This document shows positions 7,073 to 39,906 of a stretch of DNA of 64,000 nucleotides, one piece after another. Location of the stretch: contig CALXHR010000003.1 in assembly GCA_944388175.1 (NCBI GenBank), positions 1 to 64,000 on the forward strand, read 5' to 3'. The position numbers and the translations under genes were made by a program. The stretch is from an uncultured Gemmiger sp. GTDB taxonomy: Bacteria; Bacillota; Clostridia; Oscillospirales; Ruminococcaceae. Every line of letters starts with the position of its first letter. Positions within the stretch are counted from its first letter, which is position 1. The notes below the pieces were generated by a model, which saw nothing but the letters and a program-made list of their open reading frames with translations, did no database searches and was not told where the DNA came from.

Positions 7073-7096
7073 AAGTCGGAGTGACGGGATTCGAAC
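7073..7096 (-). repeat. attL core (24-bp copy of the tRNA-Pro 3' end)
   Basis: Begins AAGTCGGAGTGACGGG and is identical to 39831-39854. This copy is the displaced host tRNA 3' end; the copy at the other end rebuilds the intact tRNA. Confidence 0.95.
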
Positions 7097-7136: not shown

Positions 7137-7153
7137 TCTAACGTCGGTCTAAC
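7137..7153 (+). repeat. Candidate integrase arm-binding repeat, left
   Basis: TCTAACGTCGGTCTAAC, a pair of TCTAAC motifs 11 bases apart. The same pattern with two substitutions lies at 39709-39725 near the other att site. It overlaps the last codons and stop of the integrase gene. Confidence 0.6.
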
Positions 7154-8226
7154 GCTTCCAGCTGCGTCCTTGCATCGTCCAGGCGGCTTTCGCGGATGTG
7201 GGTATAGATCTTCTGCGTCGTGGCGATGTCGGTGTGGCCCATGATCGTTTTGGCTGCCAGCACATCCACGCCGGCTTCGTACAGCATGGTCGCATATTCA
7301 TGCCGGATCTGGTGGCGGTCGATGCTGGGCTTCCACGGGTCCCCCGTCTGCGACTGATTGCCAAGCCCCAGGGACTTCGTGTACCGCTCCCAGTAGCGGT
7401 TCAGCGCGCTCTTGGACAGCGGTTTTTCCCCTCCGATGAGATAGCGTTCCGGGGCATCCGCCAGCGGTCTCAGCAGGGTCTCAAGCGCTGTCAAGAGCGG
7501 CACCGCACGGACCCCCGCCGCTGTTTTTGGCTTTTCGATCACGGGTGCATTGCCATGGAACACGACCGCCTTTGTGATGCTGATCTTGTGACCGGCGAAG
7601 TCAACGTCTTTCCACTGCAAGGCCAGCGCCTCCCCGCAGCGTGCGCCGGTGTACAGGATCAGCAGCGCCAGCAGGCTGCACGGCTGCCCTGCGGAGCCTT
7701 TGACCGCTTTCAGCTGTTCCGGGGTGAGCAGCTGGCGGGTCTTGTGCGCAAGGTGCGGCGGTACCGCGACATACTGACAAGGGTTTCCCTTGCAGTATCC
7801 TTTCAGCACCGCATAGCGGAAGATCATATTCAGCACAGACAGCTGGTTTGCCACCGTATTGCGGGCAGACTTCTGCCCCAACTCCACAAGGAAGGCGTCG
7901 ATCCTGTTCGGCTCTACCTCCCCTACCCTGGCCGCGCCAAACGTCTGCACGGCGCGTTCGTAGGCGGGCTTGTAGCAGCGGGTCGTTCCGTATGCGATCT
8001 CCCGCTGCTTGCCCTGCCACCATTCATCCGCTACAGCTGCAAACGAACGGCCGCGCTGAAGCTCTTCCCTTTTCTCGTCGCTGGCCCGCAGGTACTCGTT
8101 GTATTTGCGCCAGACCTCCCGCGGGTTCTTGCTGGAAAAACTCTTTTGCTTGCCGTCGATGCGGCGCACCAGTTCATAGGTGCCGTTGGCCCGGAGCGTC
8201 AGGCCGTCGGTCAGTTTTCTCGCCAT
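7138..8226 (-). CDS. int: Tyrosine-type site-specific integrase
   Basis: A 362-residue phage integrase that recombines attP with the tRNA-Pro attB. It has an N-terminal AP2-like arm-binding part (residues 1-55), a SAM-like core-binding domain (60-165) and a catalytic domain. The catalytic residues are visible: Arg197 (ARCGE), Lys234, His305/Arg308 (HQIRHE), His331 (GHTD) and nucleophile Tyr341 (IYTH). An ATG two codons upstream lies only three bases from GGAGG, so the second ATG, nine bases away, is the likelier start. The gene ends 42 bases from the left att core and no excisionase gene is adjacent. Confidence 0.95.
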   Translation of the reverse strand: MARKLTDGLTLRANGTYELVRRIDGKQKSFSSKNPREVWRKYNEYLRASDEKREELQRGRSFAAVADEWWQGKQREIAYGTTRCYKPAYERAVQTFGAARVGEVEPNRIDAFLVELGQKSARNTVANQLSVLNMIFRYAVLKGYCKGNPCQYVAVPPHLAHKTRQLLTPEQLKAVKGSAGQPCSLLALLILYTGARCGEALALQWKDVDFAGHKISITKAVVFHGNAPVIEKPKTAAGVRAVPLLTALETLLRPLADAPERYLIGGEKPLSKSALNRYWERYTKSLGLGNQSQTGDPWKPSIDRHQIRHEYATMLYEAGVDVLAAKTIMGHTDIATTQKIYTHIRESRLDDARTQLEALDRR

Positions 8227-8274
8227 AAGCATACACCTCCGAATGGGTATGACTTGCCAAGCCTACCCGGAGGT

Positions 8275-8367: not shown

Positions 8368-8787
8368 TTATACCAATGACCTTATAGCTGAAACGATAGA
8401 ACTTGTATTCCAACCTACTACCGTGTCGGCTTTTTCTCTTAGATATGCAGGCATATTTATTTGGCCCCAGGGCATAATTGCAATAATCGGTTTTCCAAGC
8501 CGTCTTGCCTCATCGACTTCAAACTGCATCCAACTATGATATATGCCATACATCCCGCCTAAAACTAAAACCACTTGTGCTCTTTTGATTTTATCGGAAA
8601 TTGCTTCTGCAATTTCCCTTGTTGTTGCACTTTCCCTTGAAAGAGCAAGAGGTTTTTCCTTAGGTGCCGAGTAATTGTAATATGAAAAATACGGAGCATT
8701 ATCCAGTAATGTAACAAGCCTTGAATATTCGTCGCCATACTTCCATGCATGACTAATAAAAATCCGATAAGGATATAGCGCGGGCAT
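8368..8787 (-). CDS. ThsB-like TIR-domain protein (predicted anti-phage sensor/NAD enzyme)
   Basis: A 139-residue single-domain protein. The start [15 protein letters not shown], the middle [15 protein letters not shown] and the helix [21 protein letters not shown] correspond to the TIR-like fold of the ThsB/MTH538 family. Glu90 or Glu93 after Trp86 is placed like the catalytic glutamate of NAD-consuming TIR enzymes. In Thoeris systems such proteins sense phage and make a cyclic ADP-ribose-type signal for a separate effector. Here the nearest same-strand gene encodes a SLATT-type membrane protein instead of a SIR2/SLOG ThsA. It is more A+T-rich than the phage core genes, which suggests separate acquisition. 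ATG preceded by AAGGATG. Confidence 0.82.
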
Positions 8788-8820
8788 CTTTATTTCATCC
8801 TTTCTTATGAGGTACTAAAA

Positions 8821-9006
8821 ATGAAATTTCAGAAAAAGAGAATCATCGTGGATGCATACCAAACATCTAAAGAAATGAATATCGAAACTTTGGAAGGGGT
8901 CATGCACGCATCGCCTGGAGATTGGATCATCACTGGCGTTAACGGAGAAAAATATCCTTGCAAGCCGGATATTTTCGAAAAGACTTACGAACCCGTAGAA
9001 GAATGA
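8821..9006 (+). CDS. Small phage protein ([21 protein letters not shown] family)
   Basis: A 61-residue protein beginning [14 protein letters not shown] and ending in a [16 protein letters not shown] block followed by FEKTYE. This block is common in small phage proteins of unknown function, usually about 70-110 residues, so this is a short member. It is on the plus strand between the leftward TIR and SLATT genes, and its last 22 bases overlap the 3' end of the SLATT gene. The start follows GAGGT. Its role is unknown; an effect on the surrounding pair would be speculation. Confidence 0.7.
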
Positions 9007-9443
9007 CCCCGGTTTTTTGTTGTAATGGGGTTTGAATTTGTGGCTTTCCATTTATTGCTTTCAGAGGATATAAGAAGCTCAATATTCTTTACAAACAAAC
9101 CCTCCGTTGATTCCGAATCTCCATACGGTGGTGCTTTCATCTCAAAAAGAAATTTTTCATGCCGTAGCAACTCACAGGTGGATCTGTATTCTATCCAATT
9201 CTCATGAACTTTATTGAGCGAAATATATCCTTCAATAACTGTAATTATCACCCCCAAAACTCCTATGACAAATTGCATCCAGCTAAAGCGCCCAACGTAT
9301 CCGACTAATAAGGGAATACATGCGGCCACAATTATTTCAACAAATTGAAGCCTTTTATATTGTTTCTGGGCACTTATTGCTTTCTTGTCATACCAATTTA
9401 TTTGATTTTCAACGCGGTTCTTCAAATATTCTTCTATGCTCAA
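8985..9443 (-). CDS. SLATT/DUF4231 two-helix membrane protein (predicted defence effector)
   Basis: A 152-residue protein matching the DUF4231 branch of the SLATT superfamily: a helical start ([18 protein letters not shown]), two membrane helices (about residues 34-50 and 56-74), then [25 protein letters not shown] proteins have been predicted to be pore-forming effectors of nucleotide-signal conflict systems. Pairing with the neighbouring TIR protein makes a sensor/effector arrangement plausible. The frame is open to 9512, but TTG at 9443 follows AAAGGA at proper spacing and begins the conserved domain. Low GC compared with the rest of the prophage. Confidence 0.78.
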
Positions 9444-9460
9444 ATAAATTTTCCTTTCTG

Positions 9461-9493
9461 CCCCTGGCGTGGTAACGCTGGGGGCATTTTTAT
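9461..9493 (+). terminator. Terminator-like hairpin upstream of the SLATT gene
   Basis: CCCCTGGCGT pairs with ACGCTGGGGG around GGTA, followed on the plus strand by CATTTTTATTTTT. No plus-strand gene lies directly before it, so it may shield the leftward cassette from opposing transcription. Confidence 0.6.
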
Positions 9494-9552: not shown

Positions 9553-10185
9553 TTATTCTATAGGGATTTTATTCAGTACTCCCTCCAGTGTGTTGATGCA
9601 CCGAGCCGCATTCTGAACAAGCAACTCATAAAAAGAACTGCCGAACTGGAGTTCTATTCCTTTTGGGTTCACTGCAAAAGTTGTGAGTGCGTTCAACTTT
9701 TTATCAAAGCTGCCGTGATTCCCGGAAAACACAATTCTATGATTGGTTATGTACAAAGTTCCTGGATAAAGTTCAGATACATTTTCCCGGATGGCCCGCG
9801 ATACACCCGTGGATCTGCCGACGCTGAGTCCCGGCATAATCCGCACACTAGCACCGCCGCCTTCCCTGACATAGCCCGTCACCCGGTTTTTGGTAACTGT
9901 ATACTGCGCCGGGGAGCAATAGACGCAGACCTCCCCCTCATCCAGAAACAGGCCGGGAGCAGGCACGGCAGACAAGGACGTAGGCTTGCTGCACAGTTCA
10001 TGCGTATAGTGTGCAGCACCAAAATAGCGCCGCCCCGACTGTACTGTGTCATAAATCCAACCAAAGCAGAACAAACCACAGGTAAAAAGATACAGCAATC
10101 CCATGCCAACTTTTCCCTGCAGGAACTTGTGGATACCAAAGGCACCGAACAAAAGGGTCACCCAAAATTCAACCGACGGGGACAT
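9553..10185 (-). CDS. TM2-domain plus PH-like domain membrane protein
   Basis: A 210-residue protein. Residues 1-50 form a TM2 unit: two hydrophobic helices joined by a turn containing FGIHKFLQGKVGMGLLYLFT. The cytosolic remainder (about 80-200) has a beta-rich PH/GRAM-like pattern (GTLYITNHRIVFSG, KLNALTTFAV). Such proteins are frequent in accessory cassettes but have no proven general function. The start ATG follows GGAG at eight bases; an in-frame start 11 codons earlier lacks a ribosome site. It belongs to a leftward group of small genes upstream of the defence-like pair. Confidence 0.7.
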   Translation of the reverse strand: MSPSVEFWVTLLFGAFGIHKFLQGKVGMGLLYLFTCGLFCFGWIYDTVQSGRRYFGAAHYTHELCSKPTSLSAVPAPGLFLDEGEVCVYCSPAQYTVTKNRVTGYVREGGGASVRIMPGLSVGRSTGVSRAIRENVSELYPGTLYITNHRIVFSGNHGSFDKKLNALTTFAVNPKGIELQFGSSFYELLVQNAARCINTLEGVLNKIPIE

Positions 10186-10272
10186 ACAGCATTCTCCTTT
10201 TCCGTCTCGCATTTGCATTTCAATCGTTAAGCCACACTCCTATGAACTCTGTCCGGCAGAGCATGGTCTTTT

Positions 10273-10533
10273 TTATATCCGCTCAAAAACCATCGTAGCC
10301 TGGACGACGTTCCCGCCCATCCCTTTATTGCCGCTGTTGGTCGTGGTGAGCGTGTGCAGCGTGTACCCCTTATCGGCTTGCTGGTTGATCACATCTTCCA
10401 ACTCGTCCAAGTTGTCGGACCCACGGCCAAGAACTTTTTCCGTAAGCATGACCTGCAGCACCACATACTTCCTCCCACTTTTCGGCTCAGGAGAAAAAGA
10501 GACTTCCTGCTTACGTCCACCTAAAATGCTCAT
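10273..10533 (-). CDS. DUF4177-like small protein
   Basis: An 86-residue soluble protein. The central KYVVLQVMLTEKVLG, ELEDVINQQADKGYTLHTL and a final strand ending in VFERI follow the ferredoxin-like DUF4177 pattern, in which a helix carries ExxINxxAxxGW/Y. Function is unknown. The frame opens 16 codons earlier, but ATG after GGGGGG is preferred. It lies between two PH-type genes on the same strand, separated from the downstream TM2/PH gene by 87 bases. Confidence 0.65.
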   Translation of the reverse strand: MSILGGRKQEVSFSPEPKSGRKYVVLQVMLTEKVLGRGSDNLDELEDVINQQADKGYTLHTLTTTNSGNKGMGGNVVQATMVFERI

Positions 10534-10577
10534 CGTGAACCCCCCTCTAGTTTTATTCGGCCGTTTTTGAAATGGCG

Positions 10578-10949
10578 TCACTTCAGAATGAAGGCGGCTA
10601 AAATTTTATCGATCTTTCGAACATCGGCAGATCGTTTTAAATTGATTTTGATGTGCCCTGCCCGCGTCCACAATTCCACTTCGGCGTTCAAGTCAAGGTG
10701 TCCGGCGTTTTCTGTCGAATACATGTCAATGGATTTATAGGGAAGCGTGTACATTTCCACCTTTTTGCCGGTAATGCCTTGGGCATCCCTGACGATCAAG
10801 CGTTTATCCGTAAAGATCGCCACATCCCGAATTGTAGAATAAGCACATATAGCGCGCTCGCCGGGGACCAGCAGGTCTTCTACATCGTCTGGCAACTTAG
10901 CTTCGTTTACAAAAGTCCACATCATGTAATGCTGCAGTTCATTTGGCAT
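10578..10949 (-). CDS. Bacterial PH-domain protein
   Basis: A 123-residue soluble protein with the bacterial PH-like pattern: LLVPGERAICAYSTIRDVAIFTDKR is followed by short strands and a final helix SADVRKIDKILAAFIL. No membrane helix. It resembles YvbH/YozB-type PH proteins, whose ligand is unknown. It is the first gene of the leftward cassette after the repressor and probably shares the leftward lysogeny promoter, which would make the cassette expressed in the lysogen. ATG after AAGGAGATCC-type sequence. Confidence 0.68.
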   Translation of the reverse strand: MPNELQHYMMWTFVNEAKLPDDVEDLLVPGERAICAYSTIRDVAIFTDKRLIVRDAQGITGKKVEMYTLPYKSIDMYSTENAGHLDLNAEVELWTRAGHIKINLKRSADVRKIDKILAAFILK

Positions 10950-10979: not shown

Positions 10980-11624
10980 TTACAAGCCGCGGCACAGGCC
11001 GACGGCTTTACCTTCAATGGTCACGTCGTTCATTTCTTCCTTCCGGCGGATGATGGAGGAATAAACTGGGTTTTCCGGCCGGAGTTCGATATAGTCCTCA
11101 TGGAAATATAGGTGCTTCAGCGTAGCCTCGTCCCCGATGCGGACAGCGGCGACCTGACCGTTCTCGACCTGCACATCCTTGCGGATGGCTACCAGGTCAC
11201 CGTCGTGGATCGTGGGCTCCATGCTGTCGCCCCGGCACTGCAGGGTGAAGGTGGCATGCCAGGCCGCAGGGATAGAGACGTAACCTTCTAAGTTTTCTTC
11301 GGCCGTGATGGGCTGCCCGCAGGCGATGCGGCCGACCAGGGGGACGGATTCCATTTCGGGGAGAGGCTCGAAGCCGGGGGGAATGGCGGGCGCCGCGTCG
11401 CTTTCCATTGGCACATCGTAACCCATCAGCCATGCTTCCGTAACGCCAAGAGCCTTGGCAAGTTCATATACTGCACTTTGTTTCCCTTCCCAGTCTCCCT
11501 TAATATATCGGGAAATACTGGATTTTGAAATTCCTGAACGTTTCGCCAGTTCGGCTTGTGTCATTTCGCGAACGTCAAGACCCTCTCTAAGTCGCCGTGC
11601 AAAAGTAGCCACTTTGTCTGACAT
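10980..11624 (-). CDS. CI/LexA-type phage repressor with S24 autoprotease
   Basis: The master lysogeny repressor, 214 residues. An N-terminal XRE helix-turn-helix (MTQAELAKRSGISKSSISRY, residues 21-40) is followed by a hinge and an S24 peptidase domain. The predicted autocleavage bond is Cys102-Gly103 in GRIACGQP, with catalytic Ser134 (RGDSMEP) and Lys170. DNA damage should trigger RecA-assisted self-cleavage and induction. The in-frame ATG three codons upstream sits directly against the AAAGG ribosome site, so the second ATG is likelier. It faces a Cro-like gene across two promoters and four operators. Confidence 0.93.
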   Translation of the reverse strand: MSDKVATFARRLREGLDVREMTQAELAKRSGISKSSISRYIKGDWEGKQSAVYELAKALGVTEAWLMGYDVPMESDAAPAIPPGFEPLPEMESVPLVGRIACGQPITAEENLEGYVSIPAAWHATFTLQCRGDSMEPTIHDGDLVAIRKDVQVENGQVAAVRIGDEATLKHLYFHEDYIELRPENPVYSSIIRRKEEMNDVTIEGKAVGLCRGL

Positions 11625-11654
11625 ACTATTCATCCTTTCAGGTGGTCTACTTGC

Positions 11655-39830: not shown

Positions 39831-39854
39831 AAGTCGGAGTGACGGGATTCGAAC
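39831..39854 (-). repeat. attR core within tRNA-Pro
   Basis: Identical over 24 bases to 7073-7096; covers the T-arm and acceptor 3' end of the tRNA. Confidence 0.95.
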
Positions 39855-39906
39855 CCACGGCCTCTTGGTCCCGAACCAAGCGCGCTACCAACTGCGCTAC
39901 ACCCCG
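39834..39906 (-). tRNA. tRNA-Pro (anticodon CGG), prophage attachment gene
   Basis: The minus strand folds into a full cloverleaf: acceptor CGGGGTG/CACTCCG, anticodon stem CTTGG/CCAAG with loop TTCGGGA, T-loop TTCGAAT. CCA is not encoded. The last 21 bases belong to the att core, so the gene is whole after integration. Confidence 0.95.

Follow-up and report, generated by a model that had tools for sequence, protein, structure and literature searches.

A prophage-borne TIR-SLATT gene pair with a constant PGDYG-family neighbour, a candidate three-gene abortive-infection module

Results

Genes and features of the locus

The window, i.e. the whole 64,000-nucleotide stretch of DNA analysed here, comes from an uncultured Gemmiger sp. 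and contains a prophage whose span was taken as positions 7073 to 39854 (32.8 kb), with a perfect 24-bp repeat at either end. Three small genes, coding for a TIR protein, a PGDYG-family protein and a SLATT protein, lie just inside the left end of the prophage, with the integrase gene on one side and the gene of a CI/LexA-type repressor on the other. The features are as follows:

7073..7096, no strand: attL, 24-bp direct repeat
7138..8232, minus strand: tyrosine integrase of the prophage (PF00589, E 4.9e-21; phrog_1)
8368..8787, minus strand: ThsB-type TIR protein of 139 aa, P0001 (PF08937, E 2.1e-11)
8821..9006, plus strand: PGDYG-family small protein of 61 aa, P0003, antisense, between SLATT and TIR
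8985..9443, minus strand: SLATT/DUF4231 two-helix membrane protein of 152 aa with a TTG start, P0002 (PF14015, E 9.5e-24)
9459..9486, plus strand: terminator-like hairpin pointing rightward, with 12 pairs followed by TTTTTATTTT, directly upstream of the start of SLATT
10980..11633, minus strand: CI/LexA-type prophage repressor (Peptidase_S24 and HTH_3)
39831..39854, no strand: attR, the repeat's other copy, which overlaps the tRNA-Pro(cgg) gene at its end
39833..39906, minus strand: tRNA-Pro(cgg)

Besides the integrase and repressor genes, the prophage contains genes for a terminase, a portal, a head protein and a holin; these four and the att repeats mark the TIR-SLATT pair as prophage-encoded. 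The G+C content of all three small genes is 37-40% (39.8% for TIR and 37.3% for SLATT), whereas that of the whole prophage is 61.5% and that of the integrase gene 61.1%. The source genome assembly comprises 1.75 Mb in 14 contigs and is 69% complete. The region between the SLATT and repressor genes (9553-10949) codes for a TM2-domain protein, which also gave a sub-threshold GRAM match, a DUF4177-like protein and a bacterial PH-domain protein. A PH-domain gene similarly lies directly upstream of the SLATT gene in phage X2.

The TIR gene

The TIR protein matched the Pfam family ThsB_TIR (PF08937) with 44.6 bits, for a cut-off of 21.2, and the PADLOC ThsB model with an E-value of 2.7e-13. Its W-x(3)-E stretch, which we take to contain the catalytic Glu of NAD-using TIR proteins, reads S85-W86-M-Q-F-E90. 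W86 and E90 are invariant in all 23 aligned TIR sequences (that of the window and 22 relatives; a split frame, L003, and a short frame, L074, were left out of this alignment, A2) and line up with the W and E in the solved structures 8fz9, 8wcf, 6lhy and 9b7d, of which 6lhy and 9b7d are ThsB proteins. In 1eiw (MTH538), which scored best among solved structures against the TIR profile, the W and E are missing. The window protein, of ThsB type, retains the presumed catalytic Trp and Glu and is predicted to be an NAD-using messenger synthase. At L003 (4803-5430), a viral contig, the TIR match is divided between two overlapping frames.

In a TIR tree, from which identical rows and rows with fewer than 110 matched residues had been removed beforehand, the window TIR was found inside a supported group of 12, every member of which is SLATT-type. 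All nine caspase-type rows and five of the six 8xMP-type rows formed a separate part of the tree (support 96/85). The relatives of the window TIR adjoin three effector types, namely SLATT, a caspase-like protease and the 8xMP membrane protein. Short ThsB-type TIR genes adjoin 8xMP membrane-protein genes at L055, L182 and L209 (by Pfam) and at L186, L012 and L015 (by eye); neither SLATT nor PGDYG was found at these loci, which may represent another TIR-membrane pairing. An M78 (IrrE-like) metallopeptidase gene adjoins the TIR gene at L181 (4001-4965), where SLATT was not found, and another is located upstream of the SLATT gene at L010 (2585-3025), in agreement with the zincin association described in PMC9503650.

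The SLATT gene and the upstream hairpin

The SLATT and TIR genes are in the same orientation and 197 bp apart. The TTG start codon of the SLATT gene is at position 9443, with AGAAAGGA 8 nt upstream. The protein was above the curated cut-off for DUF4231 and matched SLATT_1 of Pfam (E 4.8e-14) and of NCBIfam (6.7e-35). It has two hydrophobic stretches, from residues 32 to 50 and 58 to 76, and is predicted to be a pore effector. A SLATT profile (alignment of 22 sequences) searched against solved structures gave non-significant matches only, the best with an E-value of 0.2.

The rightward hairpin terminator upstream of the SLATT gene is one of 6 terminator-like sites in the region; shuffled versions of the region had 4.1 on average. 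A hairpin in similar position is present in the close relatives L062 and L063. Upstream of the SLATT frame or start it was detected in 7 of 47 modules compared (the window, L062, L063, L050, L084, L101 and L112). Termination of the PGDYG transcript upstream of the SLATT gene is therefore not a general feature.

An initial annotation of this DNA had described two leftward low-GC genes between integrase and repressor, coding for a ThsB-like TIR protein and a DUF4231/SLATT two-helix membrane protein. Place, strand and G+C content are as it stated, and the matches to PF08937 and PADLOC ThsB for the one protein, and to PF14015 and SLATT_1 together with the two hydrophobic stretches for the other, bear out both identifications.

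The PGDYG gene

The third gene is oriented against the other two. It shares 22 bp with the 3' end of the SLATT gene, and 33 bp separate its start codon from that of the TIR gene. Candidate ribosome-binding sites for P0003 and for the TIR gene were read by eye on both strands. P0003 matched the PGDYG family (PF14083) with an E-value of 3.9e-4 and 21.1 bits, under the Pfam cut-off of 27 bits, and phrog_419 with 6.9e-25; copies above the PF14083 cut-off are a tandem copy in genome G573 (51.1) and a Natrinema plasmid copy (29.7). P0003 shares the core of 57 aligned PGDYG sequences, in which K5, T23, E25, G26, G33, D34, G39, E43, P46, F52 and Y56 are invariant.

One of the loci nearest to the window module is found in a Ruminococcus MAG. 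Between the window and L062, amino-acid identity is 92% for PGDYG, 69% for TIR and 56% for SLATT, and for P0003 the proportions of synonymous and non-synonymous differences are 0.83 (pS) and 0.05 (pN). PGDYG is therefore not a chance frame, as its identity to L062 is 92% despite saturated synonymous sites; it is the best-conserved gene of the module and is under purifying selection. A PGDYG profile gave only non-significant matches to solved structures (2a7y, E 0.7), and no Pfam match to anti-Thoeris or messenger-sponge families was obtained for the PGDYG proteins tested.

Association of TIR, SLATT and PGDYG

With the window SLATT (P0002) alone, 33 phage records were matched, a set that is independent of PGDYG and contains many near-identical or duplicate records (22 from Staphylococcus, 9 from Streptococcus and 2 from Enterococcus). 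PGDYG lies opposite SLATT in 33 of 33; this was established by coordinates for 31, by reading for L050 and by inference for KT945994.2, judged from its identical length and coordinates to be a duplicate of the L050 record. A TIR was seen in all 27 of the 33 records that were checked for it, in 23 by scanning and in 4 by reading. A single-protein scan of viral contigs with P0002 gave no matches and a SLATT profile was therefore used. It detected 27 IMG/VR contigs, in all of which PGDYG is opposite SLATT and TIR shares the SLATT strand; with near copies taken out, this was so in 21 of 21. Seventeen of the 27 contigs are outside and 10 inside the PGDYG-found set (80 of 597 loci), but this count is not fully independent, since the profile (A3) was built mostly from loci reached via PGDYG or TIR queries. 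Three TIR sequence types occur in these contigs, ThsB-like, Javan-type and X2-type, all of PF08937. TIR_2 is a further type found beside SLATT-PGDYG, so that TIR types swap while SLATT-PGDYG is constant.

The converse scan, with a TIR profile, gave 46 loci. SLATT and PGDYG are both present at 28 of them, 1 has PGDYG at a contig end, 7 have a caspase-like gene and no PGDYG (0/7; 5 loci after removal of near copies), 2 have SLATT without PGDYG (L189 and L211, where the SLATT gene runs off the contig) and 8 have none of these, one of which (L213) is cut by the contig end. At L189 (3986-5238), a SLOG-like gene (PF18306, E 1.9e-5, just under the cut-off) holds the convergent place beside TIR and SLATT. 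SLOG domains act on nucleotides (PMC9503650).

When modules with differing SLATT proteins were counted, their distinctness being judged solely by differences in the last 80 SLATT residues, PGDYG was opposite SLATT in 47 of 47. Three gene orders were found (arrowheads indicate orientation): SLATT>PGDYG<TIR>, as in the window, SLATT>TIR>PGDYG<, under which L076 was placed owing to its long TIR frame, and TIR>SLATT>PGDYG<. Among 391 genomes of the class, DUF4231 was above cut-off in 10 and ThsB_TIR in 64. PGDYG adjoins 7 of the 10 DUF4231 loci, namely those of the window, of G348 and of five genomes of one genus; at four of the latter five loci a TIR gene was seen, of the TIR_2 family (Pfam-tested on one). 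Next to the long SLATT genes carried by Rhizobium and Klebsiella plasmids, PGDYG was not found. In G573, from the phylum sample, a SLATT gene adjoins a tandem double PGDYG (L247, 3454-4364), and no TIR was found within 8 kb with our own profiles.

The co-occurrence check strongly supports the initial proposal that TIR and SLATT form a linked pair, a same-strand TIR being present in 27 of 27 SLATT-profile viral contigs. The proposed two-gene composition did not hold, as the opposite-strand PGDYG gene is about as constant as the pair itself. The module consists of three genes, not two, and the association and the strand rule were observed in the sets examined. That PGDYG is a true third component is supported by this association and by the purifying selection on the gene.

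PGDYG outside the module

P0003 matched 788 of 50,697 phage records, against 33 for SLATT (P0002). In 63 of 80 PGDYG contigs (80 of 597 confirmed loci) neither TIR nor SLATT lies within 1.2 kb, and these free copies sit partly in head, lysis and replication regions, by annotation or by eye. In the 391 genomes there are 17 PGDYG places. Seven are the SLATT neighbours mentioned above, and three lie within proteins of about 500 aa that also contain DHH and DHHA1 domains and whose genes all adjoin a TIR gene; among the remaining seven, the six that were read gave no TIR or SLATT match with the profiles used.

DHH-DHHA1 enzymes cut small nucleotides. A search with one DHH protein gave 28 full-length relatives, 15 of which are within 5 kb of a ThsB_TIR hit; this is a raw count, obtained by comparing the coordinates of every ThsB_TIR row from those genomes that had a full-length DHH match. 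PGDYG was recognisable in 25 of the 27 full-length relatives read and in none of three short ones read. The phylum sample contributed three further DHH-PGDYG proteins that were read, one with TIR nearby. No SLATT was found by HMM beside DHH-PGDYG in 6 stretches scanned whole. DHH-DHHA1-PGDYG with TIR is possibly a separate chromosomal TIR system. The DHH-DHHA1-PGDYG proteins, in which PGDYG forms the end of the chain, are located at L214, L215, L216 and L262-L291.

In a tree of 108 PGDYG sequences, which is poorly resolved as it has few columns, module and free copies are mixed, with 13 changes between the two states, at least four of them forced by well-supported branches. PGDYG therefore probably joined the module more than once.

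Two free copies have neighbours linked to anti-defence. In Curtobacterium phage AddiRose (L253, 2050-3114), a gene annotated as nicotinate ribosyltransferase codes for a hydrophobic, apparently membrane-spanning stretch (by eye) followed by a PGDYG match, which was obtained by tblastn only, with no Pfam match; this gene adjoins an Acb2/Tad1-domain gene. In vB_KsaM-C1, PGDYG is beside a Cas4-family gene noted as anti-defence by the annotators. A survey of 11 annotated records, from 10 phages and one plasmid, gave little support for a general placing of free PGDYG in anti-defence islands, because neighbours were family-tested in two of them (AddiRose and Pmp10, one protein each) and most are unannotated.

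Discussion

Proposed function of the module

The explanation that we consider best, with a probability of roughly one half, is that TIR, SLATT and PGDYG form a prophage-borne three-gene abortive-infection module in which PGDYG restrains the other two. Infection by another phage would activate the TIR protein, which, to judge from its family, would convert NAD+ into an ADP-ribose-type messenger. The messenger would then make the two-helix SLATT protein permeabilise the membrane, as predicted by others, and the infected cell would die or halt before phage release.

PGDYG is most likely the off-switch of TIR-SLATT, and the restraint may have two layers. The gene is embedded antisense between SLATT and TIR, and its transcription should therefore oppose that of the pair. 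Given the position of the hairpin in the window, the PGDYG transcript could cross the entire SLATT gene in antisense before ending; since the hairpin was found in only 7 of 47 modules, this long-antisense reading is not general. At the protein level, PGDYG would probably act either as a trap for the messenger or through binding to SLATT. Such restraint would prevent accidental killing of the lysogen and allow the prophage's own lytic growth.

Alternative explanations

PGDYG might instead be a classical antitoxin-like binder of SLATT with no nucleotide link, SLATT-PGDYG being the core and the TIRs exchangeable triggers. This is possible, if on the unlikely side. It accords with PGDYG tracking SLATT rather than TIR, as seen from its absence at all seven caspase-TIR loci (5 non-redundant), with the exchange of TIR types while SLATT-PGDYG persists, and with the G573 SLATT gene, whose neighbour is a tandem double PGDYG and around which our own profiles detected no TIR in 8 kb. 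It fits less well with the occurrence of PGDYG on DHH phosphoesterases near large TIRs, where no SLATT was found in the 6 stretches scanned, and with the excess of free PGDYG over SLATT in phage records (788 versus 33).

The DHH fusions, the SLOG-like gene of L189 and the AddiRose neighbour are indirect hints that favour a nucleotide-related role of PGDYG. A more specific and rather doubtful version of such a role is that the PGDYG domain serves to bind ADP-ribose messengers produced by TIR proteins, in the module, in the DHH fusions and as free genes. If so, the module PGDYG would be a built-in sponge that sets the firing threshold, the PGDYG on DHH-DHHA1 beside large TIR proteins would be part of a messenger eraser, and the free PGDYG of hundreds of phages would be a widespread unrecognised anti-TIR sponge.

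It is improbable that PGDYG is a passenger with no defence role, i.e. a common phage gene that happens to lie at the att-site end of lysogeny modules. The gene is indeed common (788 of 50,697 phage records), and lysis or head genes surround some of the free copies. However, its association with SLATT spans three gene orders, at least three TIR types, several phage groups and chromosomal copies, with the opposite strand kept in 47 of 47 modules, and the 13 module/free changes in the tree, at least four of them forced, point to probable repeated joining, albeit in a weakly resolved tree.

Alternatively, the TIR protein could itself be the toxic effector, by NAD+ depletion, with SLATT merely sensing or localising it. 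NAD+ depletion is the mode of some bacterial TIRs according to PMC12847820, but the TIRs of Thoeris types I, II and IV produce messengers for separate effectors (PMC12847820), and relatives of the window TIR adjoin SLATT, a caspase-like protease or 8xMP, so that we give this idea little credence. Least credible is a bait function, in which the module would guard a copied phage protein and fire when the PGDYG of an infecting phage displaces the copy: free PGDYG is common in phages, in some cases among lysis genes by eye, and interleaves with module PGDYG in the tree, but the DHH fusions would be left unexplained.

Comparison with known systems

The reading as a module restrained by PGDYG can be set against several described systems. 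SLATT had earlier been tied to nucleotide-related effectors (PMC7159879), and TIR with SLATT was reported in the Firmicute phages Javan281 and SN10 by Iyer et al. (2022, Viruses 14:1977, PMC9503650), who predicted for TIR-SLATT a membrane effector under the control of an ADP-ribose derivative. The pairing of TIR with SLATT has thus been known since 2022 (PMC9503650), and the constant third gene is the new element; the word PGDYG is absent from the main text of that article. Both domains and a phage or satellite setting are common to those systems and to ours. The window TIR is of the ThsB-like type, however, and a protein search with P0001 gave no link to the phage TIRs of Iyer et al., matching one record, from Salmonella. 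In the literature searched, which left most subscription papers outside, no paper was found with the word PGDYG, nor any that tested anti-phage activity or the messenger of a TIR-SLATT pair.

Thoeris of types I, II and IV relies on a TIR-made messenger that acts on a separate effector (PMC12847820). The module has in common with types I and II (TIR with ThsA) a ThsB-family TIR, the conserved W and E and the presumed messenger logic, and type II likewise ends in membrane damage, via a TM-macro effector (PMC12847820). In contrast to these types, it carries SLATT instead of a SIR2-type or TM-macro effector. ThsA-type SIR2_2 or STALD was not found in the host's own 69%-complete genome, in line with the initial remark that ThsA is absent; the STALD search matched no control genome.

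Type IV Thoeris consists of a TIR and a caspase-like protease, with N7-cADPR as messenger (PMC12847820). The TIRs of L057 and L047, 39% and 41% identical to that of the window, adjoin caspase-like genes as in type IV. In the module the effector is SLATT and not a caspase, PGDYG is absent at the 7 caspase loci, and no caspase-like protease was found among the 9 window proteins scanned. As the caspase-type TIRs group apart from the window group in the tree, the messenger of the module cannot be read from type IV Thoeris, and N7-cADPR was not kept as a candidate. Across Thoeris, the TIR product that activates the effector is a cADPR isomer or His-ADPR.

A P2-like phage, AC1, carries TIR and transmembrane proteins that are protective in E. 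coli (Rousset et al. 2022, PMC9122126). Judged from its description, this system resembles ours in being prophage-borne and in having three genes with a TIR and membrane proteins; where PMC9122126 describes these membrane proteins, they are not termed SLATT. Tad1, Tad2 and Acb2 are small phage proteins that capture immune messengers (PMC12043709) and offer a possible analogy for PGDYG.

Implications

These TIR-SLATT systems are recast as three-gene rather than two-gene systems, and PGDYG, a phage protein family that is very common but has no known function, receives a first testable role. Should PGDYG indeed act as a restraint on TIR signalling, a counter-defence that has so far escaped notice may be present in many phages. 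The module also illustrates how a prophage could hold its own suicide system in check.
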